Assembly (NCBI GenBank): GCA_019636335.1
Contig: JAHBXR010000020.1
Span: 62,001 to 126,000, forward strand
Length of the DNA: 64,000 nt
Source: Pirellulales bacterium
Lineage (GTDB): Bacteria > Planctomycetota > Planctomycetia > Pirellulales > JAEUIK01
Direction of reading: 5' to 3'
Shown: positions 3,464 to 32,256 of the stretch, piece after piece
Numbering within the stretch: position 1 is the stretch's first letter
Layout: each line of letters starts with the position of its first letter
Notes under the pieces: model-generated
Databases searched by the model: none
Told to the model about the DNA's origin: nothing
The model's input: the letters and a program-made list of their open reading frames with translations, nothing else
Made by a program: the position numbers and the translations under genes

Positions 3464-5365
3464 ATGTCCGCCCTACGCAACAACCTTATGCTCGCGCGAA
3501 CGCTCGCCGCCGCCACGGTGCTGTGCGGCCTGCTCCTCGTGGCCCCTCCGGCCCGCGCCGAAATCAGTGAGTCCGATCAGAAGCTGGTCCAGGATGTCTG
3601 GGCCCGCCTGCTCGCCGTGGCCGAGCCCCCCGAAGGCTTCGCCTGGCCCCCCACGATCGAAATCGTCGAGAACAAAGATTGCAACGCCTACGCGACGATT
3701 CGCCCATCGAAAGAAGGGGACGACCCCAACCTCCGCTATCCGATTTCCGTGGTCTTCACCGGCATGCTCGATCAGATCATCCAGGGGGACCCCGATCGGC
3801 TCGCCTTCATCCTCGGTCACGAGCTTTCGCACATCACGTGCGGCCACGTCGTCACCCCCAGCACAGGCAAGCCCAAGTTCATCGAGATCGTCTACACCCG
3901 CATCGACGAGAACGAGGCCGACGTCGAAGGGGCCAAGCTCATGGTCAAGGCCGGCTACTCCCTGCCCAGGGGGATCAAGGGCATTCAGCGCATCATCGAG
4001 CTTGGCTTGGAGTACACCTCCTTCGAAGGTCTCAGCGTCGACCACCCCTCGTGGAAAGACCGCCTCGTCCTCATCGACGGCGAACAGTCGAAGATCTGGA
4101 AGAGCATGAGCGCCTTCGAGAATGGCAATATCTTCCTCGCCACCGAAAACTATCCCATGGCCGAGTCCTGTTTCCGCTTCGTTATCAAGGATTTTCCCAA
4201 CTGCTACGAAGCCTGGGCCAATCTCGGCTACGCACTCCTCATGCAATACTGCGATGGCCTCGAGGAAGAAGACCTCCGCAGCTTCGCCGTCGGCCAGATT
4301 CTTGTCGGTGGCTTTTACTCACGTCCCAATTCTCTCTCTGCCGGTCTGCGCGGACCCGACTCGGAAGTCTGGTTCGAGGCCATCGGCGCCCTGCGAGAAG
4401 CCCTCCGTCTCAAGCCCGACCTCACGCTCGCCAAGGCCAACCTGGGCGTCGCCTACCTCGTCTGCCCCGATGGCAAGGATGTCGGCAACGCCACCCGCTT
4501 CCTCACCGAGGCCGCCAGCGACGCCATGAAGGACGACTCGCTCGATCCCCTCATGCGGGCCGCCATCCTGCTCAACGCCGGCGTCGTCGATCTCGCCGGC
4601 GGCAACGCCACCGACGGCGAATCGAAGTTCACCGAAGTCGAAAAGCTGGGCAAGGAGCTTCCCGGAGGCAGGCCCGCCACCACCACGGCGCTGGCCACCG
4701 CGCTGCAATACAACCGCGCCACCATGCTCATGGCCTCCCCCAACGTCGATCAGCGCCGCCGCGCCCTCGACGAGTGGGAGCTGTACCTCCGCTCGGCCAC
4801 CCCCGCCTCGGCCTGGTGGGCCCTGGGTTACGACAGCTACGCCAAGCTCTGCAAGGAACTGAACGCCACTCCCAAGACCAAGGACGAACTGCAAAAGGCC
4901 GGCAAGGAAAGCTTCCGCCTCGTCGTCTCCGTGCCGCTCGCCTCGGGCGAAACGATCGACCTCGGCAATCCGGTCCAAGCCGAACTCGCCAAGCTCGGCG
5001 AACCAGAAACCCTCCCCATCGCCCCGCGCCGTGGCAAGCTCATGCGATATCGCTACAACGATCTCGGCCTCGAGGTGCTCGGGCTCGAAGACGTCATCGC
5101 CGTGCGACTCAGCGGCCCGAACGCCCCCGAGCTGCCCCTGCGTGGCTCCGGCCTCACCGGCGGCAAAAAGTCGATCAAGATCGGCATGACCAAAGACGAT
5201 CTCGAAAAGCTTCTCGCCGGCCAGGACTACGACTTCCGCGAGCTCGACGATCCCGAAAAATCCTACCGCTTTTATCGGAACCTGGGGCTCGCCGTCCGCA
5301 TCGAAGGAGGCAAGGTGGTCGAGCTCGTCGTCGCCCAGATTCCCCAGCGCGATCGCCAGACCTGA
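3464..5365 (+). CDS. Secreted M48-family metalloprotease with TPR region
   Basis: The protein has 633 residues from ATG 3464, which is preceded by GAGG and starts a clear signal peptide (residues 1-28, ending APPARA-E). An M48 zinc protease motif HELSH sits at residues 119-123, and the third ligand is in 'DENEADVEGAKLM' near residue 151. After the protease domain, about residues 210-460 show helical TPR-like repeats ('AWANLGYALLMQY', 'TLAKANLGVAYLVCP'). The C-terminal 150 residues resemble none I can name. M48 proteases of this kind (compare BepA/LoiP, which also combine M48 and TPR) act in envelope quality control; export here is inferred from the signal peptide. The next gene lies 96 bp downstream on the same strand. 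Confidence 0.85.
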   Translation: MSALRNNLMLARTLAAATVLCGLLLVAPPARAEISESDQKLVQDVWARLLAVAEPPEGFAWPPTIEIVENKDCNAYATIRPSKEGDDPNLRYPISVVFTGMLDQIIQGDPDRLAFILGHELSHITCGHVVTPSTGKPKFIEIVYTRIDENEADVEGAKLMVKAGYSLPRGIKGIQRIIELGLEYTSFEGLSVDHPSWKDRLVLIDGEQSKIWKSMSAFENGNIFLATENYPMAESCFRFVIKDFPNCYEAWANLGYALLMQYCDGLEEEDLRSFAVGQILVGGFYSRPNSLSAGLRGPDSEVWFEAIGALREALRLKPDLTLAKANLGVAYLVCPDGKDVGNATRFLTEAASDAMKDDSLDPLMRAAILLNAGVVDLAGGNATDGESKFTEVEKLGKELPGGRPATTTALATALQYNRATMLMASPNVDQRRRALDEWELYLRSATPASAWWALGYDSYAKLCKELNATPKTKDELQKAGKESFRLVVSVPLASGETIDLGNPVQAELAKLGEPETLPIAPRRGKLMRYRYNDLGLEVLGLEDVIAVRLSGPNAPELPLRGSGLTGGKKSIKIGMTKDDLEKLLAGQDYDFRELDDPEKSYRFYRNLGLAVRIEGGKVVELVVAQIPQRDRQT

Positions 5366-5461: not shown

Positions 5462-6022
5462 ATGTCTCGCTTCATCCGTCGCAGCTTGCTCGCCCTGACC
5501 GCCGTCGCCCTGTTGAGCACCGCCGGGCTGTCGGTCGCCCAGGCTCAACCCAAGAACCCCAACGACGCCGCCGCCCCGGCCGCCTCGGCCGGTCCGTCGC
5601 TCGAGCAACTGCTCGACGCCGCCGGCTTCGCCTACTCGAAGCAAACCTTCGACGACGGCAACGTCGCCTACCGCATCACGGTCGAGGCCAACGGCGAAGT
5701 CTCCATCGTGGTCGCCAGCGAGCGCACCATGGGCTGGAAAGATTCCAAGGGGAACGACGTGAAGCTCGTCTACATCTGGACCACCATCACGCCGGTGGCC
5801 GACGGGGTCGAGCTGCCCGCTTCCATGCTCAAGCGCATCGCCGAGCTGAACGATCAGTACCTCATCGGCGGCGTCAGCGCCCCGAAGGGAGGCGTCTACT
5901 ACTGCAACTCGTTCTGGCTCCGCACGGCCGACCCCGAAATCCTCGCCGACGAACTCGTCCTGGCCCACAACTCCCGCCTCAGCCTCCGCAAGGAACTCCT
6001 CCCCTACATGAGCGAGAACTAG
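5462..6022 (+). CDS. Exported YbjN/CesT-like small protein (paralogue 1)
   Basis: This protein has 186 residues with a signal peptide (residues 1-28, ending AQAQ). The conserved part begins 'LEQLLDAAGFAYSK' and continues through 'YRITVEANGEVSIVVASERTMGWKDSKGNDVKLVY', an alpha-beta pattern like the YbjN or type III chaperone fold. That assignment is tentative. A clear paralogue is at 15434-15991 on the other strand, sharing 'GFAY', 'YRITVE', 'TMGWKDS.GNDVKLVY' and 'GVY.CN.F.LR.AD'. The two point towards each other and enclose the CRISPR-Cas locus. AAGGA precedes the start at 5462. Confidence 0.8.
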   Translation: MSRFIRRSLLALTAVALLSTAGLSVAQAQPKNPNDAAAPAASAGPSLEQLLDAAGFAYSKQTFDDGNVAYRITVEANGEVSIVVASERTMGWKDSKGNDVKLVYIWTTITPVADGVELPASMLKRIAELNDQYLIGGVSAPKGGVYYCNSFWLRTADPEILADELVLAHNSRLSLRKELLPYMSEN

Positions 6023-6351: not shown

Positions 6352-9350
6352 GTTGCGGATTGGTCGCAGGCCGGGATCAGGTACACTCCGTGCCCCAGCT
6401 CGTGGCACGCCACGGCGTTGCGGATTGGTCGCAGGCCGGGATCAGGTACACTTCGAAGGAGGTTGGAGAAAAACTACTTGACGTTGCGGATTGGTCGCAG
6501 GCCGGGATCAGGTACACTTGGGCGAATCTGGTCCGCAAACCCAACCACGTTGCGGATTGGTCGCAGGCCGGGATCAGGTACACTGCATGCCGCCGAAACG
6601 GCAGCCGGTCCTACGTTGCGGATTGGTCGCAGGCCGGGATCAGGTACACTCCCGCGGCTCGGTCCCCGCCGATGAGTTGTGTTGCGGATTGGTCGCAGGC
6701 CGGGATCAGGTACACTCTTTAGCCTGGCTGGGACAGTTGATTGAAGTTGCGGATTGGTCGCAGGCCGGGATCAGGTACACTCTGTAACAACAATTGCGCT
6801 GGGTTTAACGGGTTGCGGATTGGTCGCAGGCCGGGATCAGGTACACTTGGTCTGCATATCCAAGAGTGCATCGATGTGTTGCGGATTGGTCGCAGGCCGG
6901 GATCAGGTACACTATCGGCTTGATTCCGTTCGTCCTGCTGCTGGTTGCGGATTGGTCGCAGGCCGGGATCAGGTACACTCGTGAACGTGAAGTTCGACGT
7001 CCACGCATCGTTGCGGATTGGTCGCAGGCCGGGATCAGGTACACTTACCCCTGGCTGTGGTGTTCGTAGGGTTCTGTTGCGGATTGGTCGCAGGCCGGGA
7101 TCAGGTACACTCGACCTTTTTTGATCCAGTCAGCACTTTGAGTTGCGGATTGGTCGCAGGCCGGGATCAGGTACACTGCCGAGCGCGACGAGGATCACCC
7201 CCGACAGGTTGCGGATTGGTCGCAGGCCGGGATCAGGTACACTGCTCTCCGGAGTAGGTCATTGGTGGGAGGAGTTGCGGATTGGTCGCAGGCCGGGATC
7301 AGGTACACTCGTGTAGGTACACTCCCCCTCCTCGCTGCCGTTGCGGATTGGTCGCAGGCCGGGATCAGGTACACTGAAGAGGTTGGCGAAGATGCCACAG
7401 GCTCTGTTGCGGATTGGTCGCAGGCCGGGATCAGGTACACTATCGCCGGTCGCGCCGATCCATAGTCGAAGGTTGCGGATTGGTCGCAGGCCGGGATCAG
7501 GTACACTGCAGCAGCCAGACGCTGTCTCAAGTCGCTGTTGCGGATTGGTCGCAGGCCGGGATCAGGTACACTTGGATGGTGCCGTCGCAGACGATCATTT
7601 GAGTTGCGGATTGGTCGCAGGCCGGGATCAGGTACACTACAGCGAGTATGGCGGCATGTTGACGGTAGGTTGCGGATTGGTCGCAGGCCGGGATCAGGTA
7701 CACTCGAGTCGGCCGGCGCGCACGAACACGGCCGGTTGCGGATTGGTCGCAGGCCGGGATCAGGTACACTGAAGACGACCCTCTTCCGCCGGCTGCTCAC
7801 GTTGCGGATTGGTCGCAGGCCGGGATCAGGTACACTTTGCTGCCGCCAAGGTGCGCCGCGACTTGGGTTGCGGATTGGTCGCAGGCCGGGATCAGGTACA
7901 CTCCAGGGCAGCAGCTTCACGTCGCAGGTCGGTTGCGGATTGGTCGCAGGCCGGGATCAGGTACACTCGACCTGTTTGCCGACCATGTCGCGGGCAGGTT
8001 GCGGATTGGTCGCAGGCCGGGATCAGGTACACTGAGTGCCACAAAACACACACCGGGTCCGTGGTTGCGGATTGGTCGCAGGCCGGGATCAGGTACACTA
8101 CACCGCTCCAGCAGGCTGCTATCCGTCTGTTGCGGATTGGTCGCAGGCCGGGATCAGGTACACTCGGCGTCGCCTCGAGCGTGCGCGCCGGCCTGTTGCG
8201 GATTGGTCGCAGGCCGGGATCAGGTACACTCTTAGGCATACGTCCAAGCAACTGCCTAGCGTTGCGGATTGGTCGCAGGCCGGGATCAGGTACACTTTCC
8301 GCCAGAAAATTGACTTACAATAGAAGGTTGCGGATTGGTCGCAGGCCGGGATCAGGTACACTCTTGTCGACGATACGCTCGCCATTTACCACGTTGCGGA
8401 TTGGTCGCAGGCCGGGATCAGGTACACTGCGGAGTGCCCGGCATGGTGACGGTCGGCGTTGCGGATTGGTCGCAGGCCGGGATCAGGTACACTCGATCTG
8501 GCCAACCTGCGGGTGCTTGTTGGTTGCGGATTGGTCGCAGGCCGGGATCAGGTACACTCAAGCGATCATCGCGGGTACGTCAAGTTCGGTTGCGGATTGG
8601 TCGCAGGCCGGGATCAGGTACACTCCGCCCGATTCCACGTGCGTCGTGGGAGAGGTTGCGGATTGGTCGCAGGCCGGGATCAGGTACACTGAAACGCGGG
8701 TCACGGTCGTGACCTTGTGTGTTGCGGATTGGTCGCAGGCCGGGATCAGGTACACTGATTGCCCTGCTCAAGGGCTTCGGCGTGCCGTTGCGGATTGGTC
8801 GCAGGCCGGGATCAGGTACACTTCCGTGCCTCTCATGTCGCTGTTTGCCGTGGTTGCGGATTGGTCGCAGGCCGGGATCAGGTACACTGTATGTCTTGGC
8901 CCGCATTCTTGGCCTCCTGTTGCGGATTGGTCGCAGGCCGGGATCAGGTACACTGCGCTGGCCGTGCGGGGCCGTCACGCCGCGGTTGCGGATTGGTCGC
9001 AGGCCGGGATCAGGTACACTACGCCGAATAAATCGAAGAACTCCTCCTCGGTTGCGGATTGGTCGCAGGCCGGGATCAGGTACACTGGATCGTCGGCAGC
9101 GTGTGGCTCGTCCACTGTTGCGGATTGGTCGCAGGCCGGGATCAGGTACACTGGTGAAGATCGAGGCGGGGGTGCCACTCAGGTTGCGGATTGGTCGCAG
9201 GCCGGGATCAGGTACACTACAGCGGCGAAGCCGCGCCATCCGTCTCGTGTTGCGGATTGGTCGCAGGCCGGGATCAGGTACACTTCCGTGCCTCTCATGT
9301 CGCTGTTTGCCGTGGTTGCGGATTGGTCGCAGGCCGGGATCAGGTACACT
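6352..9350 (+). CRISPR. Type II-C CRISPR array: 46 repeats, 45 spacers
   Basis: The 36-bp repeat begins GTTGCGGATTGGTCGC and ends GATCAGGTACACT. I located 46 copies by position (first 6352-6387, last 9315-9350) and saw no sequence variants among them. The spacing is 66 bp in 38 intervals and 65 bp in 7, giving 38 spacers of 30 nt and 7 of 29 nt. The direction of transcription is plus: the tracrRNA anti-repeat at 13916-13952 is complementary to the plus-strand repeat, so crRNAs read spacer-GUUGCGG. Spacers 38 (8823-8852) and 45 (9285-9314) are identical. The repeat 3' end TACACT resembles a -10 box. All protein frames across this block are translations of the repeat, not genes. Spacer targets are unknown. 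Confidence 0.99.
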
Positions 9351-9381: not shown

Positions 9382-9404
9382 GTTGCGATCGTTCGGCCGT
9401 CAGA
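9382..9404 (+). repeat. Degenerate terminal repeat after the array
   Basis: Thirty-one bases after the last perfect repeat, GTTGCGATCGTTCGGCCGTC aligns to GTTGCGGATTGGTCGCAGGCCG with small gaps. The position is right for one more unit (spacer 9351-9381), and it runs into the 3' end of cas2. Degenerate repeats usually mark the old, leader-distal end of an array. Confidence 0.5.
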
Positions 9405-9729
9405 AAAGCTGCAACTGAGCGGGCGCAGTCTCGGGCGCACGGCGGATTTTCCCCCAGAAAATCCGCATCCGCTCAAACTGCTTGTCCGTGATGGTGAGAA
9501 TCCGTACCTCGCCGTCCGGGGGCACTCGACGCTCGACTCGGTACGTATGCACATCCGCATTCTCCTGGCTTGCGCAATGCCGCAAGTAAATTGAGTATTG
9601 CATCTGTGTGAACCCGTCTTCAAGCAGATCCTTCCGAAAGCGCGCGTAATTCCGCCGCGCCTTCTTCGTATCGACAGGCAGATCGAACATCACCACCAAC
9701 CACATGCAACGATATCCGCTTATTCGCAC
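9400..9729 (-). CDS. cas2: Cas2, CRISPR adaptation protein
   Basis: The protein has 109 residues with the Cas2 ferredoxin-like fold signature 'WLVVMFDLPVDTKKARRNYARFRKDLLEDGF'. The conserved Asp is residue 16. The sequence 'QYSIYLRHC' and the C-terminal 'ILTITDKQFERM' fit type II Cas2. It starts at GTG 9729 behind GGAG inside cas1; the ATG at 9705 is an alternative. It overlaps the end of cas1 by 10 bp, so the two are translationally coupled. With Cas1 it forms the integrase complex that captures new spacers. The 3' end touches the degenerate last repeat of the array. Confidence 0.95.
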   Translation of the reverse strand: MRISGYRCMWLVVMFDLPVDTKKARRNYARFRKDLLEDGFTQMQYSIYLRHCASQENADVHTYRVERRVPPDGEVRILTITDKQFERMRIFWGKIRRAPETAPAQLQLF

Positions 9730-10640
9730 GCGCGCGGAATCTCCAACTGGAGCGATTTCGATTCGTACGACCGCACTAGCGAACCAACATAACGGTGCAG
9801 CGCCACCATGAGTGGCCCCTCGACTCCCGCCGACGACGACATCGGCAGCGTCAACAGTTCCAAAAGCGCTGCCTTGGTGGGTTGGTCCAATTCATTCTGA
9901 CCTGCCCAGTACAACTCGCGGACGCGCTCGTCCACGATCGGTCGTAGCGGCTCGATCAAGTCGTCTGCTAGGCAGAAGGCGTTCGCGCGGTGGCGATGTT
10001 GAATCCCCAGCGCCGGCAACAATCCCGCCGCCACGAGCGCGCGTGCTAGCGCGGCGCGCAGGATGGCATAGCCATAGTTCAGCAGGGCATTCGGCGAAGC
10101 TCCGTCGCGGAGGCGCCGAAATCGTTCGTCCGTCACCCGGGCCTGCGGATCCTCGCTCAAGAGCCAGTGTTGCCAATACACACGCGCGGCCTGCGCCTCA
10201 CGCAGCGTGCCATCGCCTGAACGCACTTCATCGGCGAACGCCAGTAACTTGCGTTGTGCGATCGGCGTGCCGGCAAGATTCTCCGCCTGCGCGCGAATCT
10301 TCGCCGCGACGATCTGCTGCCAGAGACGCTTCTTCAGGGGGCGACTGACCGAGACCTGCAAATCGACACGCCACACGACCTCGGCGTGATCCGCCAAGGG
10401 TAACAGAATGCCGGCGGGCAAGTGGTCGTGCCCGCAAATCACGACGGCTGCGTCCGACTCCATGAGCGCCCGCAATGCGCCGTGCGAGTACGTCGTGGCG
10501 GGATGGTCTACCACCACCACGCCGACGTCCTCGCACGCCACGCGCCCAACGACTTCACCGTCGCGCTTGAGCAGCAATTGACGATGCTCCGTCGCGAGGT
10601 GGACCGGAGCCGAGGATATTTCGATCGTGTGCTTGATCAC
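9720..10640 (-). CDS. cas1: Cas1, CRISPR integrase
   Basis: This is a 306-residue Cas1 of the type II kind. Catalytic residues are visible: Glu148 in 'GTLREAQAARVYW', His215 in 'LGIQHRHRANAFCLADDLIEPLRP', and the acidic cluster Asp226-Glu230. The usual GIHH motif is GIQH here, with the second His kept. The start is a GTG at 10640 with GAGGGG upstream. It lies 97 bp downstream of cas9 and overlaps cas2, giving the order cas9-cas1-cas2. There is no csn2 or cas4, which defines subtype II-C. Confidence 0.96.
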   Translation of the reverse strand: MIKHTIEISSAPVHLATEHRQLLLKRDGEVVGRVACEDVGVVVVDHPATTYSHGALRALMESDAAVVICGHDHLPAGILLPLADHAEVVWRVDLQVSVSRPLKKRLWQQIVAAKIRAQAENLAGTPIAQRKLLAFADEVRSGDGTLREAQAARVYWQHWLLSEDPQARVTDERFRRLRDGASPNALLNYGYAILRAALARALVAAGLLPALGIQHRHRANAFCLADDLIEPLRPIVDERVRELYWAGQNELDQPTKAALLELLTLPMSSSAGVEGPLMVALHRYVGSLVRSYESKSLQLEIPRACE

Positions 10641-10737: not shown

Positions 10738-13700
10738 TTAATCGTTGGCCCAACGAATCTGCCCCCGTGGATCCACGATCACTTTTCTTGCCCCTTGTAA
10801 GCTATTGGCTGTCTTGCCGATATCCTTTCGCTTTGCGCCTGGCCGAGCGTCCATTGCATCCACCACGTGAATACGCTTCTGCGTCGTAACCATTGTGGTT
10901 ACGAGGACGAGTCTTTTCTTTCCCAAGAACTCAGTCAACATCAAGTCACCTTTGCAGAGGGACATGACGAAACGCGATTGAGGGTTTTCTGGATCATGGC
11001 GTTGGACAAGTGCTTCATGACGCCTGATACGGCGCGCGGCATCAAGCATAGTTACGTATTTAGCGTACCATCGTATCTTTTTGCCGGTCACATCCTCGAA
11101 GATGCATACATGATGCACGCTTCCGGGTTTGACGAGCTTTTTTCCTGCGATGAGTGGGACCATTGATTCGTCGCGCTTCGTAAGTCGCACACGCCGAACA
11201 GGGATGCGCTTCTCAGCGTTTAACCAAAGCGGTTCGCGCCAAACATCAGCAGGGATCTTGTCTCCTCCCCGACCTGGAACGACTCCGAATTGTGCTAGGC
11301 GTTCGACAATCCGTTGCTGGACTATCGGATCACGAATGTCTGCGATCATAGAGGCAGTTAGGGCTGTAAGATCTTTGCGCACGGAGACCTCACCCGGTTT
11401 GGCCGTCGGTCCATAGATCGTGTCCTCGTGCAACACGCCAGCCACCTTACGCCGCACCCGATGCGAGACGTTAACGTCTCGGACTGCCTGCTCGACACTG
11501 CGCCGAAACTGCGGCCAGGGCTCCATGCCCACCGACCCCGGCTGTGCTTCGTCCGTCCCGAGATACGACGCCAATTGTTGCAACCGCGAACGGTTCATCA
11601 GCGCAATTACCACGGCGTCGATGGCATGATGCCGGTGGTCCAGACGATTTTTCTCGCCGGGTGGTAGCTCCAGGGCTTCGTGCCACGCGGGGCTGTCCTC
11701 CATCTCTCGCAGAATCGTGTCGAGCCCCCACAGTCGGCGGAGTGTGGCCGTGTGTTGCCCCTTGGGACAAATTACATCCGCTCCCAACGGTCGCACGTAC
11801 TCCGCAACCTGCGAAGTAATGTACGTCGTGTCGACGTACTGTCGCGCAAAGAAATCCTCCAAGTCGAGATCCCGCTGTGTAAAACGCTTGAACTTCGGAT
11901 ACGGGAGCTTCTTGGCACGCTGCTCTACCTGCTCGAACTTTTCAGGGTTGCTCGCGGCGAGCCATTCGTACGGCGTGCGATTGCCTTTCGCATCGCGATG
12001 CACCCCCTGACTGTTTTCCGCGCGGAAGCAGACCACTTTGTTCATCAACGAGTTATCGAGACTTCGTTGACGAGGCAAGATATGATCGATATCGATCTCG
12101 CCGCCGAATAGCTGCGAGACGCTGATCAAGCGACCGCTGTAGATACAGACCTTGTCTTGCTCCTCCCACAGCAAATAGCGATCAATGGCATCTCGCGTCG
12201 GCTTGTAACCCAGCTCGCGAATGCGCTCCGCGGCTCCATCGCGCAGCTTCTCACGGTCACGCATCTCCTTCGTTCGCTCCTGTCGCTGCCGTGCCGTGCC
12301 GCGCACCTCGCGCGCCAGCTCAACGTGAATTCTCGTAAGCCGATGCCCACGCCGGTAAACGAGATCTCGTAGGATCGCATTCACCACCTTGCGCACCTCG
12401 TGGAGCGCCTGTCGCACCAACGGATTCGTAATATTAGGTGGATGAGGGAGTTCTGCCTGCTTCTGCTGCGCTCGATCCCAGGGCATGAGGTAGCCAGCCT
12501 CGCGCAACGCACACGGTTCGTTCTCATCGCGCGACGAGAGCGGCAATCCTCGTTCGACGTGCGGCAATAGTCGCTTAATAGCGTGCAAGCTATAGCTGGC
12601 GTAACCCTCGGGCAGCGCCACGTCGAGCAGGTCGGCTGCTTTGACCGGATCCAGGTCACCTTGGCGCAGAAGATGTCGCAAGCGATCCTCGTCGGCATCG
12701 ATGATCGCGGCCACGATACGATCTTTCAGGCCTTCGTCGAGCTTTTGCCAGGTCTTCCCCAGCGCCTTGGGCTTCGACAATGCATCGTCCGACTGCATTC
12801 CCAATAGCTTCGACCGTCCGCCTCGCTCGAGATTGAAGAAAATCGATTCCGGTTGATCGAAGAGTTTCTTGCGAATCGCGTCGAAGCTGCGCTCCTTCGC
12901 GCTCGACAGATACTTGACTAATTGCGCGCGTTCCTCCGTGCTCAGCGCCCGCTCGAGCCCCGTACTAGCGTCGAGAATTCGCAAGTTGTTCACTTCCAGG
13001 TACAGCCGAAACCGCTGCGCGCGCCGATCCGCGCGCGCACAGCGCGGGAGCCTCCCCGTCTCGTCCAGCTCGCAGCGGCCGATCAGGCTCGGAGACGGCT
13101 TGTGCAGGGGGCGTTGGAAGAAAATCGCTCGCTGCACTTTCTCACGCAAGACGTCCGTCAGCAGATCAGAGTAGTACGCTGATTGCGCCTGCCAAATGGC
13201 CTTGAACTCTCGCTCATACATGTCACGCCGTGTATGCCGGCCGCGCAAACGCACTTGATGCTGCTGCCCTGCGTTCGTCCCACGTAGGTCGTGCAGATAC
13301 TGTCCCAATGTCTTTCCGTCTAGTTCAGCCTCGAGATCGCTGATCTCCTTCAGCATGTCGGACGTTTCTTTGGCACGCTCTTTATCGGCCTTCCGATTCG
13401 AGAGAAATCCTCGGCGCTGCGCCAGGTGCAATAATACTCGCCCGAGTTCATCGTGCGTCAGACGTTCGGAAAGGGCCTTCGCTCGCAGAAAGTACGGGTC
13501 CGCTGCTTGGAAGGCCTGCTGCTCCCATGCAACTCGATCCATATGCTCGCGAGGGTAGATGGCGCTTAGTGGCAGCAATCCAGCAGCCACAAGCAATCGA
13601 CGTAGTAGCCGCTTGCGTCGCGCTCGTCGCGCAATCTGTCTGCGAGCTGCTCGCGCAAGACGTCGTTGTGCGTTCTTGGAAAGCTCGGTGCCTTTGGTGT

Positions 13701-13824
13701 CGCGATCAACACCTTCGGGGAAAACGCGGACACCGCAACCGTGAATCTCTCCCCCTTGCTCGTCGATCAGCGCCCAACCTACCGACGTCGGTCCCAAATC
13801 CAATCCAAGCGTGAGATCGCTCAT
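10738..13824 (-). CDS. cas9: Cas9, type II-C RNA-guided nuclease
   Basis: The protein has 1028 residues from ATG 13824, which follows a strong GGAGGGG. A longer open frame to 14025 is rejected because it runs antisense through the tracrRNA. RuvC-I is 'LGLDLGPTSVGWA' with Asp9. The Arg-rich bridge helix follows at about residues 45-80 (RRLARAARRQIARRARRKR). RuvC-II Glu502 is in 'IHVELAREVRG'. The HNH domain has Asp580-His581 in 'IDIDHILPRQRSLDNS' and Asn604 in 'CFRAEN'. RuvC-III is 'DHRHHAIDAVVIALM' with His733 and Asp736. All catalytic residues are intact. Residues beyond about 745 form the divergent PAM-recognising region. The size and spacing are close to the compact II-C Cas9 of Neisseria (1082 residues). 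Target PAM is unknown. Confidence 0.98.
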   Translation of the reverse strand: MSDLTLGLDLGPTSVGWALIDEQGGEIHGCGVRVFPEGVDRDTKGTELSKNAQRRLARAARRQIARRARRKRLLRRLLVAAGLLPLSAIYPREHMDRVAWEQQAFQAADPYFLRAKALSERLTHDELGRVLLHLAQRRGFLSNRKADKERAKETSDMLKEISDLEAELDGKTLGQYLHDLRGTNAGQQHQVRLRGRHTRRDMYEREFKAIWQAQSAYYSDLLTDVLREKVQRAIFFQRPLHKPSPSLIGRCELDETGRLPRCARADRRAQRFRLYLEVNNLRILDASTGLERALSTEERAQLVKYLSSAKERSFDAIRKKLFDQPESIFFNLERGGRSKLLGMQSDDALSKPKALGKTWQKLDEGLKDRIVAAIIDADEDRLRHLLRQGDLDPVKAADLLDVALPEGYASYSLHAIKRLLPHVERGLPLSSRDENEPCALREAGYLMPWDRAQQKQAELPHPPNITNPLVRQALHEVRKVVNAILRDLVYRRGHRLTRIHVELAREVRGTARQRQERTKEMRDREKLRDGAAERIRELGYKPTRDAIDRYLLWEEQDKVCIYSGRLISVSQLFGGEIDIDHILPRQRSLDNSLMNKVVCFRAENSQGVHRDAKGNRTPYEWLAASNPEKFEQVEQRAKKLPYPKFKRFTQRDLDLEDFFARQYVDTTYITSQVAEYVRPLGADVICPKGQHTATLRRLWGLDTILREMEDSPAWHEALELPPGEKNRLDHRHHAIDAVVIALMNRSRLQQLASYLGTDEAQPGSVGMEPWPQFRRSVEQAVRDVNVSHRVRRKVAGVLHEDTIYGPTAKPGEVSVRKDLTALTASMIADIRDPIVQQRIVERLAQFGVVPGRGGDKIPADVWREPLWLNAEKRIPVRRVRLTKRDESMVPLIAGKKLVKPGSVHHVCIFEDVTGKKIRWYAKYVTMLDAARRIRRHEALVQRHDPENPQSRFVMSLCKGDLMLTEFLGKKRLVLVTTMVTTQKRIHVVDAMDARPGAKRKDIGKTANSLQGARKVIVDPRGQIRWAND

Positions 13825-13879: not shown

Positions 13880-13917
13880 TTGAAACATGATCGTACCACA
13901 GCTAAACTCGTTGACAG
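13880..13917. promoter_or_regulatory. Overlapping divergent promoters for tracrRNA (+) and cas9 (-)
   Basis: On the plus strand TTGAAA (13880-13885), a 17-base spacer and TAAACT (13903-13908) make a good sigma70-like promoter whose start falls at about 13914-13916, the first base of the anti-repeat. On the minus strand CTGTCA (complement of 13912-13917), 16 bases and TACGAT (complement of 13890-13895) could drive cas9 with a leader of about 60 nt. The minus -10 lies inside the plus-strand spacer, so the two promoters would compete. The plus promoter is the better supported of the two. Confidence 0.6.
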
Positions 13918-14043
13918 TGTACCTGATCTCGGCCTGCGATTCTTTTCGCAACAAAGATGACTCGCCTTCGGGCGGGAACATTCGCAGGCAACGCCCCACG
14001 GGGCGACCGCCGTAGCTCGTGTCAACGATCTGCGGCTTTTTTT
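13915..14043 (+). ncRNA. tracrRNA of the type II-C system
   Basis: The anti-repeat 13916-13952 matches the reverse complement of the CRISPR repeat in three blocks: 13 bases (AGTGTACCTGATC), 10 bases (CGGCCTGCGA) and 6 bases (CGCAAC). A G-U position and one internal bulge (7 nt against 6) separate them. This gives a long crRNA:tracrRNA duplex for RNase III, with a bulge next to the lower stem as in other Cas9 systems. It is followed by a hairpin CTCGCC-TTCG-GGCGGG with a UUCG tetraloop (about 13961-13976). A second hairpin is CGCCC-CACG-GGGCG (about 13992-14005), and a terminator hairpin ends in seven T. The predicted length is about 129 nt. It lies divergently upstream of cas9 and converges on the ArsR-type gene. 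Confidence 0.93.
14009..14043 (+). terminator. Rho-independent terminator of the tracrRNA
   Basis: GCCGTAG (14009-14015) pairs with CTGCGGC (14030-14036), an inner CGT/ACG pairing closes the loop, and TTTTTTT follows at 14037-14043. Confidence 0.9.
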
Positions 14044-14104: not shown

Positions 14105-15073
14105 TCAAAACTTCCCAATCCACCCCCAGCGCAGCCGCTCCAACCTCGTCCCATCCAGATAACACTGCCCGCGCCGCCCACGGCGCCGCTCCGACCTCAC
14201 CAGTCCCGCACGCTCCAGCACCGCCACGTGCTTTCGCACCGTCTCGTGACCGCGCCCCACGGCTCGGGCTAACTGCGCCACCGTCTGCCCTCGCTCCTCA
14301 TACAAAGCATCCAGCATCCGCCGCCGCGTCCTGCTCGCCAGCGCCAGGAACACCTCATCCAGTTCCCGCTCCCATCGCTCCTCCCCCTCTGCCCCCTCGG
14401 CTTCTCTCCCCTCTGGCTCCGCGACGTCACTCTCCTCCCGCTCCTCGGCCTCTGGCTCCTCAGCACCGGAATCCCAGGTCTCCTCCCCCGCGCTGCGATC
14501 CTCGTACGCAGCACGTTTCCCCTTCCTCTTTCTTCGGCGCCGCCCCACAACATCCCCCGTCGCATTCCTCTCCCTCTCCTCCTCACCTGATCTCCCGCTC
14601 ACCTCTCTCGCGCCAAGCGCGCCGCTCTCCGCTCGGTCAGCCCGGACGTGCCGCATCAAGAGATCCCAAGTCGATTCCTCGACAGGGCCATCACCCCCAG
14701 CAGGGCGCTCCCCCACCCGCTTCTGCTGCTCAACCGACCTCCTGCTCTCCTCTCTCGCGCCGCGCGCGCCCTCCGCCTCATGTGCCCCGGCATTCTTTCG
14801 CGCCAGCCTGCGTTCCACCAAGAGCCGTCGCTCACGATCGTCGAGCGCTGCGAACTTCTTGAACGCCCGCATCAGCAACCGCGTGAACCGACGATCCGCG
14901 CGATTCCGCTCGTCCGCCTCGCGCTCTGCCGGCGTCATCGCCGCTAGTTCGGCCTTGCGTTTCGCACGCCGCTCTCGCCGCCGCTCGTTGATCGCCCGAT
15001 CCCGCGCCAATTCCTCCCGCGTGGGTGGACCCCAACGCTTATTGAGACTGAACCTGGGCATTTGTTTCGCCAT
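14105..15073 (-). CDS. ArsR-type winged-helix regulator with long charged N-terminus
   Basis: The protein has 322 residues from the ATG at 15073; an in-frame ATG at 15163 would add 30. Neither start has a strong ribosome-binding site. The last ~85 residues form an ArsR/HTH_20 winged helix: 'FLALASRTRRRMLDALYEERGQTVAQLARAVGRGHETVRKHVAVLERAGLV', then a basic wing and 'YLDGTRLERL..GWIGKF'. The N-terminal ~235 residues are almost entirely charged, with Arg/Lys-rich and Glu-rich blocks (for example 'GRRRRKRKGKR', 'EEPEAEEREESDVAEPEGREAEGAEGEE') and are probably disordered. No metal-binding Cys pair of classical ArsR sensors is present. It ends 62 bp from the tracrRNA terminator. Its target is unknown; control of the CRISPR locus is only a guess from position. 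Confidence 0.7.
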   Translation of the reverse strand: MAKQMPRFSLNKRWGPPTREELARDRAINERRRERRAKRKAELAAMTPAEREADERNRADRRFTRLLMRAFKKFAALDDRERRLLVERRLARKNAGAHEAEGARGAREESRRSVEQQKRVGERPAGGDGPVEESTWDLLMRHVRADRAESGALGAREVSGRSGEEERERNATGDVVGRRRRKRKGKRAAYEDRSAGEETWDSGAEEPEAEEREESDVAEPEGREAEGAEGEERWERELDEVFLALASRTRRRMLDALYEERGQTVAQLARAVGRGHETVRKHVAVLERAGLVRSERRRGRRGQCYLDGTRLERLRWGWIGKF

Positions 15074-15433
15074 GAACGCACCATATCCACCCGCGCGGCT
15101 GGATTGCCAGCGCATCTTTGCGCGACCGTCGCGACTCGGCAGGGGGATGTTTAAGGTACGCATCGTACGTCACTTACACCCCGCGCAAAAAAGAATCGGC
15201 CACCCACGCACCACCTCAGCAACCGACGAACCACCCTTCCAAAAACGCGGAATTGAAAAAGACCATCTTGAGACGTTCCGCGCACAAAAAAAATTCCACG
15301 CCCCACAAACGACCACAGCCCCAACGATCACCTCGGTGACCGCGGGGCCGTGTCGGGAGCCGCCTCATATTGCTTTCGCTCGGGGGAGCGTGGGCCTCGT
15401 TTCCCTCTCCCCGCCCGACGATTCGCTCCGCTC

Positions 15434-15991
15434 TTAACCCTGCAGCTTCTTCATCAGACCGCCAATCTGCTCCAAGGCTCCCAGCGCGTCGTTCGCCGTC
15501 AGGTAGACCTCGTCCGTCAGGCTCTCCGCGTCGGCACGTCGCAGGAAGAACGTGTTGCACAGGTACACGCCATAATCGTTCACCACCACGCGGCCGATAT
15601 AGCGGACATCGTTCAATTGATTGATCGCCGCCAGCAACTCCTCGGGACGATGCTCACCCTGCGGAAGATCGCCCAACCAACGGTACAGATACACCAGCTT
15701 CACGTCGTTGCCGGCCGAATCCTTCCAGCCCATCGTCACCTCGCGGGCAATCACCACCGACACCGTGCCGCTCAACTCGACCGTGATGCGGTAGCTGCCG
15801 TCCTCGATCTTGCGATAGGCGAAGCCGCTCTCGGCGAGCAGGCTTTCGAGCGTGGGCAGAGAGCTGGTTACCGCGGGGGCCGTCTCGGGCGTCGTGATCG
15901 GGGTCTTGTCTTGCCCCTTGGCCGTGCCCGCCAGGCAAACCGCCAAAGCCGCCAGCACATACAGCAGATCGTTCTTGAAGATGCGAGCCAT
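15434..15991 (-). CDS. Exported YbjN/CesT-like small protein (paralogue 2)
   Basis: The protein has 185 residues from the ATG at 15991, which begins a signal peptide (MARIFKNDLLYVLAALAVCLAGTAKGQ). It is a paralogue of 5462-6022: both share 'LESLLAESGFAYRK' or its equivalent, 'YRITVELSGTVSVVIAREVTMGWKDSAGNDVKLVYLY' and 'YGVYLCNTFFLRRADAESL'. The fold suggestion (YbjN or type III chaperone-like) is tentative. Orientation is opposite to the first paralogue, with the CRISPR-Cas island between them. Confidence 0.8.
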   Translation of the reverse strand: MARIFKNDLLYVLAALAVCLAGTAKGQDKTPITTPETAPAVTSSLPTLESLLAESGFAYRKIEDGSYRITVELSGTVSVVIAREVTMGWKDSAGNDVKLVYLYRWLGDLPQGEHRPEELLAAINQLNDVRYIGRVVVNDYGVYLCNTFFLRRADAESLTDEVYLTANDALGALEQIGGLMKKLQG

Positions 15992-16333
15992 GACACAAAC
16001 TCCCTGAGCAGAATCTTGAGGCGGGACCACGAGGTTGTTTTTGGTCGCGGAGAGTCCCGGTAATCCGCGTTCTGGTCATCACTTAGGCCGCCGGTTCGTC
16101 GTCTCGTCGGCCACGCGAATGAGACGCCGCGCCGCGCGGCAAAGTTCCTCGCCCGGCAAAAAATTTCACGCCTACCGGCGCTGAGAGGAAACGCGCCACG
16201 CGGTCCCCGCGTCGTAAGTCGTGTGGGGCTGTCGCACGCCCCGACCGAGCCTGAAACAAGGGAGGCTCGGCTCGGAAACGGCCCGTCCCAGGTGCTAGAA
16301 TTCATAGATTCGCCACTTTCCGGGAGGAGTTTG

Positions 16334-19300
16334 ATGCCCCATCCCAGTGACCGCCTCGGCGCGGATCGTGCCGTACCGCCGGCCGCCAGCGTAGCGCGCC
16401 TCGGCGGCCGGTTCGTGCTCGCCGCGATGCTCTGTCTCGGCGGATTTCGTGCGGCGCTGTGGGCCGATCCGCCTGTTCCCGGCCGCCAGGGCCCCCCCGA
16501 TGCCACGGCCGCGGCGCGACCGACTCTCGATCCGCGCTATCTCGAGCTAGAACGCCTCGAAGCGGACGTGCAGCGTCTGGAGCGCGAAGACCAGCTCGAC
16601 GAGGCCCTCGAAGTGGCGCTAAAATTGCTCGCGCTCGGTCGCGAGATCCATCAGGGCAAGCCCCACCGCGAGATTGCCGCCTCGTGCGATTATCTCGTGC
16701 GGCTGTACGAGCAGACTGGCGACTTCGACCACGCCCGGCGCTACGCCGACGAACAGATCAAGCTCGTCGAAGCCATCTACGGCCGCCAAGGCTGGCGCTT
16801 GGCCGAAGCGCGCCGCCGCCGGGCATTGGTCGATCGCCGCGCCGCGATGGACCCCGACGAGCGTTGGCAGCTCTTCAACGCCCGGCGCCAGGCCGACCGG
16901 CTCGCCAAAGAAGATCGCTTCAACGAGGCGCTCCCCTTGGCCCGCCAGGCCGCCGAGATCGAGATCCAGCGCCTGAAAGAAGGCGACTATTACGCCATCC
17001 TCGCCCTGCGGCGCACGGCCGAGCTCAGCTTGCAGGCCGGACAACTCGAGCAGGTCGAGCGGACGCTAAAAGCATGCCTGCGCGATCTCGAGCGCCTCGT
17101 GGGCCGCGATCACCCGTCGATCGGCGACACCCTCGATCTGCTGGCCGGCTACCACCGGGCACAGCGCGACTACGAAGCGGCACTCCCCCTGCATCGCGAG
17201 GCCGCCGAGAACTTCCGCCGCGTTTACGACGCCGACGATCCGCAAATGGCCGTGGCGCTCAATAACCTGGCCGTCTCGTACGACGAGTTGCAGTTCTACG
17301 ACGAGGCCGTGCCCCGCTACCGCGAGGCACTACGCATCATGCGGCTGCGCCACGCCGACAATTACCACGACGTGCGCTCCATACGCGAGAATCTCGCCCG
17401 CGTCCTCGTCAACCAGGGAGACGTCGCCTTCGCCGAAGAAGACTATACCGCGGCGATCAAGCTCTTCTCCGAGGCCGAGCAGGAACGCTCCTTATGCGCC
17501 GGGCCCGACCACTGGCAAACCATCGACGCGCGTCGCGCCGTCCTGCGGGCCAGGCGCCTCTTGGCGATGAGCGAAAAGCAACGCGCACAATACCGAGCGG
17601 CCGTCGAAGCGTACGACCAGGCCTCGCTGCTCGGGAGCGAAGGAAAACCGGCCGAGGCGCTGGCCGCCGCCGAAAAAGCCCTCGAGAGCTTCCGCGAGCT
17701 CTTCGGCGAGGAAGATCGCTGGATTCCCAACTGCCTCAACGAGATGGCCAACCACCTCTCCTCGCTCGAACGCTACGACGAATCACGCGCGCGATACGAC
17801 GAAGCCGGCATTCTCATTCGTCGCCTGCTGGGAGAAAACCACTTCGAGATCGGCATCAACCTGTACAACATGGGCAACCTGCTGGAGCGGATGGGCCAGA
17901 ACGATCAGGCCATCGAAAAATACCGCGAGGTCGTCGACCTGCAGGCCAAAATTCTCGGCAAGACCGATCCCGAGTACGCCGATTCCCTCCGCGTGCTGGG
18001 CTACTCGTACCGCGATCGGGGAGACTACCAACTGGCCGAGCCGCTGCTGCAAGAAGCGGTCGACATCCTGCGTCCCGCGCAGGCCGAGTATCCCGCCTAC
18101 TATACGAACGCTGTCTACGACCTGGCCGCCCTCTACCGTCTGCGGGGCGAATACGGCCGGGCCGAACCCCTGCTGCGCGAGGCGATGCTGAACTCCGTTC
18201 AGGTCTTCGGCGAAGAAAGTCACGAAACGGCGCTGTACACCAATCAGTTGGCCATCATCTACGACGAACAGCAAAAGCATGCCGAGGCGAGCGAGCTGTA
18301 CCAGCGCGCCATCGAACTGCACACGGCGCTCGAAGGACGCGACAGCTCGAATGTCGCCACGACGCTCGACAATCTCGGCCGGCTTTATGCCGAAGACAGG
18401 AAGTACGAGCTGGCCGAGCCCCTGCTGGCCGAGGCCCTGGCCATCCGCGTTCGCCTGCTCGGCCGCAATCACGCCGACGTCCACGCGAGCCTGGCCCACC
18501 TGGCGGGGCTCTACCTCGATCAGCAAAACTATCAGGATGCCGAGCCCTTGTTGGTCGAAGCGGCCGAAGTCTGCCGCAAAACCAATGGGCCGACCAGCCC
18601 TCTCTATGCCGAGCGCCTGATCGCGCTGGCCAGCCTCTACGACTCCACCTCGCGCGCCGCACTGGCAGCGCAACAACGCCAGGGGGCCCTCGACGCAATC
18701 GAGCAGGGCCTCGCCGACGAAGACAAGCAACGCCTGCAGCGACATCTAAACGACTTTGTCTCCACGCTCGACAATCTTGCCAATCAATTCCAGCAACACG
18801 ACGACTTTACCCCCGCCATTCGCGCGCGACGCCTGCGCTGGGATGCGGTCGAACGTCTCTTCGGCCAGGATCACTGGCGAACGACGAACGCGCGGTTCGA
18901 TCTGGCCGAATTGCAGCAGACGGCGGACATGCCGGCGGCCGACCGCACCGAACTGACCGAGGCCTCGAACCTGATGACCGCCGCGTCCGACGCGGAAAGC
19001 AAGGGACAGTTTCAAGAAGCCGCCGAGCTGACCACCCAGGCGCTAGAAATCCGCCGCCGCCTGCTGGGGGACGACAATCGTTACACGATCGTCTCCCTGA
19101 GCTCGTTGGGATCGCTCCACCGCAAGCTCGGCGACTACGAGCACGCCCGTGCCGAGGCCGAAGAGGCGCTCGCGCGGCGTCGCAAGCTCTTGGGCGAAGG
19201 GCATCCCGACGTCACGATCGACATGTCGTTCCTGGGTATCCTCTGCCGCAAGATGGGGGACTTCGAGCGGACCAAGGAGCTCTATCACGCCGTCCTCGAG

Positions 19301-21853
19301 CGCGATCTCGCGACTCATGGCGAGACGAGCACGCAGGTCGCCAGCGACATGAACAACCTGGCCGTGCTGTACGAGGACATGGGACGCCCCTCGCAAGCCT
19401 TGCCCTTCGCCCGGCACTCGGTCGAGATCCACACTCAGCTCAACGGCGAGCAGCACGTCGACACGCTCAATGCCATCAACACCCTGGCCGCGGTCTATTT
19501 GGCCATGGGAGATACCGAGCGTGCCGTGCCCCTCTTCGGCCGCATCATGCGGCTCTATCGCGAATTGTTGGGACCGGAGCATCCCGACTATCTCGAGAGC
19601 TTGAACACGGCCGCGATCGTCTGCTCGGATAATAGCGCTTACGACATGGCGGAAGATTTCTTTCGCCAGGCGCTCGAGGGGCGCGCCAAGGTGCTGGGCA
19701 AAGATCATCCCGACTACGCCAGCACCCTGAATGGGTTCGCCAATATGCATTGGCGCCAAAACAAGCTCGACCAGGCGGCCGCCGAGCACGCCGAGGTGCT
19801 CGCGATCCGCCAGCGTCGGCTCGGCCCCCGACACACCCTGACCGCGCAAACGCAGAGCAGCCTGGCCCGCGTCTACATCGAGATGGCGCGTTATGACGAA
19901 GCCGAGAAGTTGCTCCAGGCCGCACTCGAGACTCGCCGCGCCGTCCTCGAACCGACGAGCCCACACATCGCCAGCACGCTCTACGGACTGGCCATCCTCT
20001 ACCTGACCACCGATCGCCCTCAGGAGGCACTCGCCGCGCTGGAAGAGAGCATCTCGCTCGACCAGCGACAACTCGAAGGGATCGCCGCATTCGCCTCGGA
20101 ACCGTCGCTGCGCGAGTTCTTGCGGTCGATCGGATACAAGTACGATCGCCTGATGGCGCTCGCGGCGACGCGCCCCGACGACCCCGCCATGACCCGCGCC
20201 GCCCTGACGTGGACGCTGCGTCGCAAGTCGGTCATTCTCGACACGCTCTGCGAATACCGGGCCGCGGAAAGCGTCTTCCGTCACGACCCGCGCATCGCCG
20301 GCCAGCTCGATCAGGTGAAGCAACTCCGGCAGCAGGCGACCGATCTGGCCCTCTCGCCGCCGCCCGGTATGACGCTGGACGAGGTGAGCAAGAAACAGCT
20401 CGCGCTCCGCGACCAGGCGCGCGACATCGAGGAGAACATTCGCGAGGAGCTAAATCGCCGCCGCCTGCACCAGGAAAAAACCGAGGTCACGATCCAATCG
20501 GTGAGGGCCAGCCTCCCCCCAGGCTCGGCCCTCGTCGAGTACATTCGCTTTCCGACCTACGTCTACCAGGGTCCAAGCGCGAACCGCGAATTGGGCGATC
20601 ATTACGGCGCCTTCGTGATCGCCCCCGGCTCGACCGACGCGCAATTCGTCGATCTTGGACCCGCCGAGGCCATCGACGAAGCCGTGAGCCGCATGCGGCA
20701 GAGCATCGAGGATGCGCCGCGCGAGCTGCAACTCTCGTCCGAAGCCGACCTCGAAGCCGACTATGCAGAGGTCGGACGACACCTGGCAGAACTCATCTTC
20801 GACCCGTTGCGCCCCGCGCTCGGCAAGGCCCAAGAGATCTTCATCGCGCCCGATCGCGAGCTGAATCGAGTCCCGTTCGCGGCGCTCGTTGCCGACAGCG
20901 GGCAGTACCTGCTCGAGAATTTCGACATCGCTTATCTCTCCTGCGGACGCGATCTGCTGCGCGATTTTCCGCGCTCGGGCGAAGGCACGCTCGTCTTTGC
21001 CGGACCCGACTACGATCTGGCGACCCCCGCTCGTAAAGAACGGGCCGAAGAGGTGCTGGCCGCGGTCGACGAACCCCTCGAGATTCAACTGGCCGAACGT
21101 TCGGCCCCCGTCGACGTCGATCTGCGCGCGCTGCGCTGGAATCGACTGCCGGGAGCCGAGGGAGAAGCCAACGACGTCGACACCGCGCTCGTGGGAAGCA
21201 CCTACGCGCCGGTCTCCCTCTACGTCGGCCCGAACGCGCTGGAAGATGTCTTCAAGGCGGTCCATTCCCCCCGCATCCTGCACATCGCCACGCACGGCTT
21301 CTTTCTGACCGCCTCGGAGCAAGGACCCGGCAGCATCGAGCGCGGGCCGGGTGAATCGGCCGAGATCGGCGCCGGCGCGGCAGGGGGTATCGCCCGCCTG
21401 CGACTCAATGCGAATCCACTCTTGCGCTCGGGCATCGTGCTGGCCGGCGCCAACGATCTGGCCACCGATCCCGCCGCGGCCGCTTCGATCGAAGATGGCT
21501 GGGTCACTGCCGAAGAGATCTCTCTACTCGACTTCCGTGGCACGGAGCTCGTCGTGCTCAGCGCCTGCGAAAGCGGTCTGGGGGACATCGACACGCGCGA
21601 CGGCGTGTATGGGCTGCGTCGCGCCTTCTTCCACGCCGGAGCGCACAACCTGCTGACGAGCCTGTTCAAAGTACCCGACGTGGAAACGCGGCGCCTGATG
21701 GCGGCCTTCTACCGCAGCCTGGCCCAGGGACAAACCAAGCTCGCAGCCCTGCACGCCGCGCAGCGGAAGATCCTGGCCGATCGACGCGCCGAAGGCCAAG
21801 CGGCGCATCCGTTCTTCTGGGCCAGCTTCATCCTGGTCGGCGAAGGAGAGTAG
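16334..21853 (+). CDS. Giant TPR-CHAT protein (caspase-like protease)
   Basis: The protein has 1839 residues from ATG 16334, which follows GGGAGGAG. An N-terminal hydrophobic stretch (RFVLAAMLCLGGFRAALWADPP) looks like a signal peptide, so the protein is probably exported or membrane-tethered. Residues ~65-1290 are an array of roughly 42-residue TPR units of the kinesin-light-chain style ('LNNLAVSYDELQFYDEAVPRYREALRI'). The C-terminal ~400 residues form a CHAT domain. The catalytic dyad is His in 'ILHIATHGFFLT' (about residue 1653) and Cys in 'LVVLSACESGLGD' (about 1745). CHAT proteases are caspase relatives; TPRs usually bind the partner or trigger. Both catalytic residues are present, so it should be active. 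No substrate is evident. The gene stands alone on its strand. Confidence 0.92.
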   Translation: MPHPSDRLGADRAVPPAASVARLGGRFVLAAMLCLGGFRAALWADPPVPGRQGPPDATAAARPTLDPRYLELERLEADVQRLEREDQLDEALEVALKLLALGREIHQGKPHREIAASCDYLVRLYEQTGDFDHARRYADEQIKLVEAIYGRQGWRLAEARRRRALVDRRAAMDPDERWQLFNARRQADRLAKEDRFNEALPLARQAAEIEIQRLKEGDYYAILALRRTAELSLQAGQLEQVERTLKACLRDLERLVGRDHPSIGDTLDLLAGYHRAQRDYEAALPLHREAAENFRRVYDADDPQMAVALNNLAVSYDELQFYDEAVPRYREALRIMRLRHADNYHDVRSIRENLARVLVNQGDVAFAEEDYTAAIKLFSEAEQERSLCAGPDHWQTIDARRAVLRARRLLAMSEKQRAQYRAAVEAYDQASLLGSEGKPAEALAAAEKALESFRELFGEEDRWIPNCLNEMANHLSSLERYDESRARYDEAGILIRRLLGENHFEIGINLYNMGNLLERMGQNDQAIEKYREVVDLQAKILGKTDPEYADSLRVLGYSYRDRGDYQLAEPLLQEAVDILRPAQAEYPAYYTNAVYDLAALYRLRGEYGRAEPLLREAMLNSVQVFGEESHETALYTNQLAIIYDEQQKHAEASELYQRAIELHTALEGRDSSNVATTLDNLGRLYAEDRKYELAEPLLAEALAIRVRLLGRNHADVHASLAHLAGLYLDQQNYQDAEPLLVEAAEVCRKTNGPTSPLYAERLIALASLYDSTSRAALAAQQRQGALDAIEQGLADEDKQRLQRHLNDFVSTLDNLANQFQQHDDFTPAIRARRLRWDAVERLFGQDHWRTTNARFDLAELQQTADMPAADRTELTEASNLMTAASDAESKGQFQEAAELTTQALEIRRRLLGDDNRYTIVSLSSLGSLHRKLGDYEHARAEAEEALARRRKLLGEGHPDVTIDMSFLGILCRKMGDFERTKELYHAVLERDLATHGETSTQVASDMNNLAVLYEDMGRPSQALPFARHSVEIHTQLNGEQHVDTLNAINTLAAVYLAMGDTERAVPLFGRIMRLYRELLGPEHPDYLESLNTAAIVCSDNSAYDMAEDFFRQALEGRAKVLGKDHPDYASTLNGFANMHWRQNKLDQAAAEHAEVLAIRQRRLGPRHTLTAQTQSSLARVYIEMARYDEAEKLLQAALETRRAVLEPTSPHIASTLYGLAILYLTTDRPQEALAALEESISLDQRQLEGIAAFASEPSLREFLRSIGYKYDRLMALAATRPDDPAMTRAALTWTLRRKSVILDTLCEYRAAESVFRHDPRIAGQLDQVKQLRQQATDLALSPPPGMTLDEVSKKQLALRDQARDIEENIREELNRRRLHQEKTEVTIQSVRASLPPGSALVEYIRFPTYVYQGPSANRELGDHYGAFVIAPGSTDAQFVDLGPAEAIDEAVSRMRQSIEDAPRELQLSSEADLEADYAEVGRHLAELIFDPLRPALGKAQEIFIAPDRELNRVPFAALVADSGQYLLENFDIAYLSCGRDLLRDFPRSGEGTLVFAGPDYDLATPARKERAEEVLAAVDEPLEIQLAERSAPVDVDLRALRWNRLPGAEGEANDVDTALVGSTYAPVSLYVGPNALEDVFKAVHSPRILHIATHGFFLTASEQGPGSIERGPGESAEIGAGAAGGIARLRLNANPLLRSGIVLAGANDLATDPAAAASIEDGWVTAEEISLLDFRGTELVVLSACESGLGDIDTRDGVYGLRRAFFHAGAHNLLTSLFKVPDVETRRLMAAFYRSLAQGQTKLAALHAAQRKILADRRAEGQAAHPFFWASFILVGEGE

Positions 21854-31787: not shown

Positions 31788-32256
31788 CGGCAGAACCTCG
31801 GGCGAAACAGAGCCGGTCGGACCAGCGACACGGCCATTCAGCAACCAGCCAGGCGGGAACGTGCGGGCAGGAAAACAACGGGCGGCCATCCCCTGCGGCC
31901 AACCGCTCAGAGTAGCACGAATTGGGGGCCGGGAAAAGAATTTTGATCGGTCGCGGAACGACCACCGGCCTTAAAATGCCGGGATGGCCGGAAACGATCC
32001 ACAGAAGCACGCAGATGGACGCAGATAAGGACAGAGTTTGCTGCTTGCCTGCGTCGTGCCGTGGTGTCGTCGTGGTTCAATTTGATTGAGCATGTATTTA
32101 CCACAACGGCACCACGGCACGACGTAGGTCAAGCACTGATTGCTCAACATCCATTGCCACTGATGCGTTCGGTATCTTGCGAATTCGACTCGCGCCCTCG
32201 TTGTTGCGGCCGATTACGATGACTCGTGGGGCCACGGCCGCCGCGGAGGGTATTTC
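31788..32256. other. 469-bp intergenic region with a long inverted repeat
   Basis: This stretch separates divergent genes and should hold both promoters. Apart from the inverted repeat at 32052-32124, I recognise no gene. 'CACAGAAGCACGCAGATGG' just before the repeat is a sequence type common in dispersed bacterial repeats. Confidence 0.5.
32052..32124. repeat. 25-bp inverted repeat, GTCGTGCCGTGGTG family
   Basis: The arm 32052-32076 and the reverse complement of 32100-32124 agree at 23 of 25 bases. The 23-bp centre is AT-rich (TCAATTTGATTGAGCATGTATTT). A related single arm with 8 bases missing is at 38855-38874. It may be a mobile or structural intergenic element. Confidence 0.6.

Follow-up and report, generated by a model that had tools for sequence, protein, structure and literature searches.

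We assign a short plus-strand region between cas9 and an ArsR-like gene of a Pirellulales bacterium, with a probability of about 0.96, to the tracrRNA gene of a type II-C-like CRISPR-Cas9 system. The region lies within a stretch of 64,000 nucleotides that was analysed as a whole, hereafter the window, and its features are collected in Table 1. The tracrRNA is an ordinary one, namely, a new example of an already known kind. In the original prediction, four elements had been recognized here, that is, a 37-nt stretch complementary to the CRISPR repeat, a UUCG-capped hairpin, a second hairpin of 5 bp and a terminator followed by seven T, and all of them are present at the places given for them on the plus strand.

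Table 1. Features of the CRISPR-Cas9 locus, in window coordinates.
Feature	Position	Strand	Description and basis
tracrRNA promoter (predicted)	13880-13908	+	TTGAAA 13880-13885, 17-nt spacer, TAAACT 13903-13908; consensus scan
tracrRNA gene (putative)	13916-14043	+	predicted start 13915/13916, end in T run; covariance model
Anti-repeat	13916-13952	+	37 nt, AGTGTACCTGATCTCGGCCTGCGATTCTTTTCGCAAC; upper helix 13916-13941, internal loop, lower helix ending CGCAAC
Nexus hairpin GATG/CATT	13956-13982	+	enlarged by UUCG-capped hairpin 13961-13976; fold of tail and of complex, alignment of 32 tracrRNAs
Conserved core TTCGCAGGCA	13981-13990	+	nearly invariant in 32 relatives
Hairpin 2 (CGCCC CACG GGGCG)	13992-14005	+	5 bp, enclosed by GG 13987-13988 / CC 14007-14008; fold
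Intrinsic terminator	14009-14043	+	stem of 7 + 4 bp 14009-14036, then exactly seven T 14037-14043; fold
ArsR-like gene	14105-15163	-	far side of the tracrRNA from cas9
cas9	10738-13824	-	1028 aa; TIGR01865 637.7 bits; Pfam HNH_4, RuvC_III; RuvC and HNH catalytic motifs
cas1, type II (NMENI)	9720-10640	-	TIGR03639 218.3 bits
cas2	9400-9729	-	TIGR01573 65.9 bits
CRISPR array	6352-9350	+	46 identical 36-nt repeats GTTGCGGATTGGTCGCAGGCCGGGATCAGGTACACT; 45 spacers of 29-30 nt

The order of the locus is tracrRNA, on the plus strand, then cas9-cas1-cas2, all on the minus strand, and then the repeat array, which is read on the plus strand. The 1028-residue Cas9, as it had been described before, appears to be intact, judging from its TIGR01865 score and its RuvC and HNH motifs: GLDLG, HVELARE, IDHILPRQRSLDNS and HHAIDAV are matched by alignment with a solved Cas9, and the closest chains of known structure are those of Cas9 proteins with 1082-1095 residues. 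Neither csn2 nor cas4 was found at the locus, where cas9, cas1 and cas2 stand together and the neighbours are the array and the ArsR-like gene. Because cas9-cas1-cas2 are adjoined by no further cas gene, and with a Cas1 of type II, the system would fit a type II-C-like one on the basis of gene content. All the parts of a compact II-C effector had been claimed to be present, and cas9, type II Cas1, Cas2 and the tracrRNA gene were found, with II-C being assigned by gene content; and the attribution to a planctomycete agrees with the presence of PSCyt1, a planctomycete cytochrome-c domain, at positions 30336-31889 of the window.

The anti-repeat forms 31 Watson-Crick and three G-U pairs with the 36-nt repeat of its own array, with two mismatches and one bulge, and the predicted energy of this duplex is -62.1 kcal/mol. 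Thus, the complementary stretch does span 37 nt, but as two helices around an internal loop rather than as one perfect stretch. Base 13915, a C, is unpaired with the repeat. Co-folding with the repeat, which had been proposed as a check, gave for the complex of tracrRNA and repeat a predicted energy of -104.1 kcal/mol, and the expected structure: a bulged duplex whose two helices enclose the internal loop, with the nexus, hairpin 2 and the terminator as separate hairpins on its 3' side. The pairing is also confined to this place in the 6.4-Mb genome, since a search with the 24-nt upper anti-repeat, allowing up to three mismatches, returned only the 46 array repeats and the tracrRNA site itself (one mismatch), where by our own estimate about 0.003 such matches would be expected by chance outside the array. 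A better anti-repeat, which the original prediction had allowed might lie elsewhere in the genome, was found nowhere by this search; within the window, the anti-repeat scores 49.5 and the runner-up place 30. As a separate observation, the last bases of the repeats in this family, TACACT, TACAAT or TATAAT, look like a -10 box, and positions 13916-13921 of the anti-repeat, read on the minus strand, keep this -10-like end; such repeat ends would fit promoters located inside II-C repeats.

Relatives were drawn from a Cas9 search of approximately 1,380 genomes, since scanning genome contigs with Cas9 had yielded a single remote relative. The Cas9 relatives obtained in this way, mostly at 30-56% identity, come from many genera of the order, the class and the phylum, and tracrRNAs could be read from about 65 of their loci; at least 31 relatives in the phylum have a tracrRNA of the same kind. 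For the 12 loci that share the repeat type and have a clear array, we compared the pairing of each anti-repeat with its own and with swapped repeats over 22 positions, and obtained 21.4 versus 19.0 total pairs and 20.4 versus 16.9 Watson-Crick pairs, respectively (permutation p = 1e-5 for the latter). Repeat and anti-repeat therefore change together across the relatives. A covariance model built from the tracrRNAs of 26 relatives, from which the window sequence was excluded, matched positions 13916-14042 of the plus strand with 68.3 bits and a genome-wide E of 2e-13, so that the covariance search that had been suggested does recover this tracrRNA. No second match in the whole genome passed E 0.001, and the 42 other weak matches of the model in the window all lie on the other strand, within the array, which is where they would be expected. 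An Rfam scan of the tracrRNA returned no match at the gathering score, and no tracrRNA family at E ≤ 10; it thus has no Rfam family assignment, and this leaves its role as a tracrRNA unaffected. Two relatives have arrangements of their own: L044 carries two tracrRNA genes (12381-12497 and 13093-13202), each with promoter-like boxes and a terminator, and in L048 the tracrRNA (4834-4967) lies about 1 kb from cas9, and a short array near 145-298 seems to be oriented opposite to those found in the other relatives.

Downstream of the anti-repeat, hairpin 2 shows changes on both sides of its stem in relatives with its pairing kept, and in the terminator both-sided changes are found at all seven pairs of the outer stem in the alignment. 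The UUCG-capped hairpin is of a different nature: it is present, but as a GC-rich insertion in the loop of the nexus that none of the other 31 aligned family members has, and not as a general part of the tracrRNA. The distance from anti-repeat to core is mostly about 11 nt in relatives (AAGACGAAACA or AAGAAGAAAAA), and reaches 28 nt in the window because this hairpin is inserted in the loop. From the alignment, the insertion is a feature of the window lineage, and it marks a spot where nature tolerates extra nexus sequence.

The ends of the RNA can be placed with similar evidence. Against the consensus, the TTGAAA box (-35) is off at one position and the TAAACT box (-10) at two. In most relatives the anti-repeat is preceded at 34-36 nt by the start of a TTGACA-like box and at 12-13 nt by an AT-rich -10 box; indeed, matches to at least five of the six positions of TTGACA within the -40 to -33 interval occur in 46 of 65 loci, versus 2.6 in shuffles. 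Since the promoter keeps a fixed spacing in most relatives, a start at 13915/13916 is supported, in keeping with the earlier proposal that the RNA begins directly with the anti-repeat. The 3' end is placed by the seven T.

These elements bear on two other readings of the region. First, recombination can leave a lone repeat-like copy, and lone repeats do occur near cas9 in the relatives L047 and L056, so that the region might be no more than a leftover CRISPR repeat in inverted orientation, silent and not transcribed. Such a remnant would not be expected to come with a conserved promoter, nexus core, hairpin 2 and terminator, nor would the anti-repeats of the family follow their repeats, and we consider it extremely improbable. 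Second, the functional RNA may be longer or start elsewhere, for instance, as an upstream-started form acting as a natural single guide. Long tracrRNA forms are found in type II-A systems, as with tracr-L of Streptococcus pyogenes, a form extended at the 5' end that directs Cas9 to its own promoter (PMC11417352). In the window, however, just 91 nt separate the anti-repeat from cas9, the conserved promoter lies 34-36 nt before the anti-repeat, and neither the array guides nor the 30 nt before the first repeat provide a seed match of at least 9 nt in the interval between cas9 and the tracrRNA; this reading is very unlikely. A self-guiding tracrRNA was likewise rejected for the window, because the array guides have no seed match near cas9. 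Separately, the lone repeat of L047 (region 8700-9122), about 171 nt upstream of its cas9, follows a guide-like stretch; the 13 nt at the end of this stretch, AATAGGGTGAGTA, are found again on the strand of cas9 at a place closer to that gene, and it is possible that the repeat belongs to a self-regulating crRNA whose seed match is short.

Examples of type II-C tracrRNAs are those of Neisseria meningitidis and Campylobacter jejuni. With tracrRNAs of this type the one in the window shares a 5' anti-repeat, a short nexus, 3' hairpins and an intrinsic terminator, whereas it differs from them in having its own nexus core, UUCGCAGGCA, the UUCG-capped insertion in the nexus loop, and no match in Rfam. 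The repeat:anti-repeat duplex of type II systems is usually trimmed by RNase III, and Cas9 cuts DNA with the dual RNA. By extension from these systems, the sigma-70-type promoter would start an RNA of about 128 nt, whose 5' 37 nt would pair with the repeat part of crRNAs transcribed from the array in the plus direction; Cas9 would hold the RNA by a handle consisting of the nexus hairpin, hairpin 2 and the terminator; and the duplex would be trimmed, probably by RNase III, so that the dual RNA may direct DNA cutting by Cas9. The parts list of a compact Cas9 of 1028 residues is complete, with the protein, the repeat and a tracrRNA with predicted start and end, and the design of a single-guide RNA for use in laboratory strains therefore becomes possible. 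The tracrRNA is located upstream of, and divergent from, cas9, which is the commonest arrangement in type II systems, where 79.2% of tracrRNAs are upstream of cas9 and 69.8% are reverse (PMC10278012). Covariance clusters of tracrRNAs have been described for characterised Cas9 orthologs, and planctomycetes are not named in the main text of that study (PMC7606464).

The tracrRNA may also have a second conformation. In the minimum-energy fold of the free RNA, the anti-repeat sequence GCCUGCGA pairs with the core sequence UCGCAGGC, and the repeat-bound handle is not formed; core bases 13982-13989 can pair with positions 13932-13939 of the anti-repeat (GCCTGCGA). Pairs between anti-repeat and nexus appear in the minimum-energy folds of the window and of all 19 close relatives examined first, and in these folds the first 15 nt or so are mostly open. 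It is conceivable, though we regard it as rather doubtful, that planctomycete II-C-like tracrRNAs maintain such a closed state, in which the middle and 3' parts of the anti-repeat would hide the nexus core and a 5' toehold of about 15 nt would be left exposed. The 3' end of the crRNA repeat would then land on the toehold, remove the hairpin by strand displacement and free the nexus for Cas9, which would load only paired guides; the window would hold a variant with a stable hairpin in the nexus loop. This switch would add to the identity of the RNA as a tracrRNA and not replace it. What comes closest to a precedent for regulation of this kind is tracr-L, a tracrRNA with a second role (PMC11417352), but it acts via a longer 5' form, whereas any inner pairing in the window would involve the nexus, which lies 3'.

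Three comparisons argue for the closed state, all of them on related loci that are not independent samples and by tests picked after the pattern had been seen. First, the energy gained from anti-repeat:nexus pairing exceeds that of shuffled anti-repeats with p ≤ 0.04 in 18 of the 19 close relatives, and p = 0.059 in the remaining one. Second, in swap tests, own anti-repeats pair better with the nexus than swapped ones (p = 0.016, 0.0008 and 0.00009 for 8, 19 and 28 clusters, respectively); the controls, i.e. the toehold part, the 3' hairpins and reversed anti-repeats, gave no significant effect. Third, the cis gain with the own nexus is -7.0 kcal/mol for real anti-repeats and -3.7 kcal/mol for a perfect complement of the repeat (Wilcoxon p = 2e-5, n = 38), with p = 0.0046 when evaluated as a duplex (n = 38). 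What gives the last comparison its weight is that its result is beyond what repeat pairing alone can explain.

Other results point the opposite way. The consensus of close relatives obtained with MAFFT and RNAalifold leaves the bases of the closed helix unpaired (pair probability ≤ 0.13), and the changes within this clade are mostly one-sided and of the G-U type, with few two-sided ones, which weakens the case since pairing with the repeat would explain them too. L125 gains little from anti-repeat:nexus pairing, the pairing in L089 is weak as judged by eye, and the closed fold is absent from three outgroup tracrRNAs, these being the usable ones from outgroup plasmid loci and too few for judging how widely it is spread. 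We found no natural tracrRNA folded shut in the open-access literature, which is not proof of absence. A conserved closed state of planctomycete II-C-like tracrRNAs is possible, and it might then act as a switch. The window itself is a weak example, its own gain being within that of shuffles (p = 0.23), and relatives such as L040, L053, L058 or L148 are better suited for study. If the closed state is real, a little-studied question, namely, how Cas9 avoids being loaded with crRNA-free tracrRNA, becomes testable.

Some features in and around the locus deserve mention in their own right. The ArsR-like gene was considered as a part of the system and dropped, because it has no homolog in the locus of any relative. 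Within the array, the spacer TCCGTGCCTCTCATGTCGCTGTTTGCCGTG is present twice. The CRISPR-Cas locus is flanked by a pair of paralogous genes that are 44% identical (5462-6022, plus strand, and 15434-16030, minus strand). Beside it, an open frame of 1876 amino acids (16223-21853, plus strand) contains internal repeats of about 42 residues, with direct repeats in the DNA spaced by 126 nt and multiples thereof.
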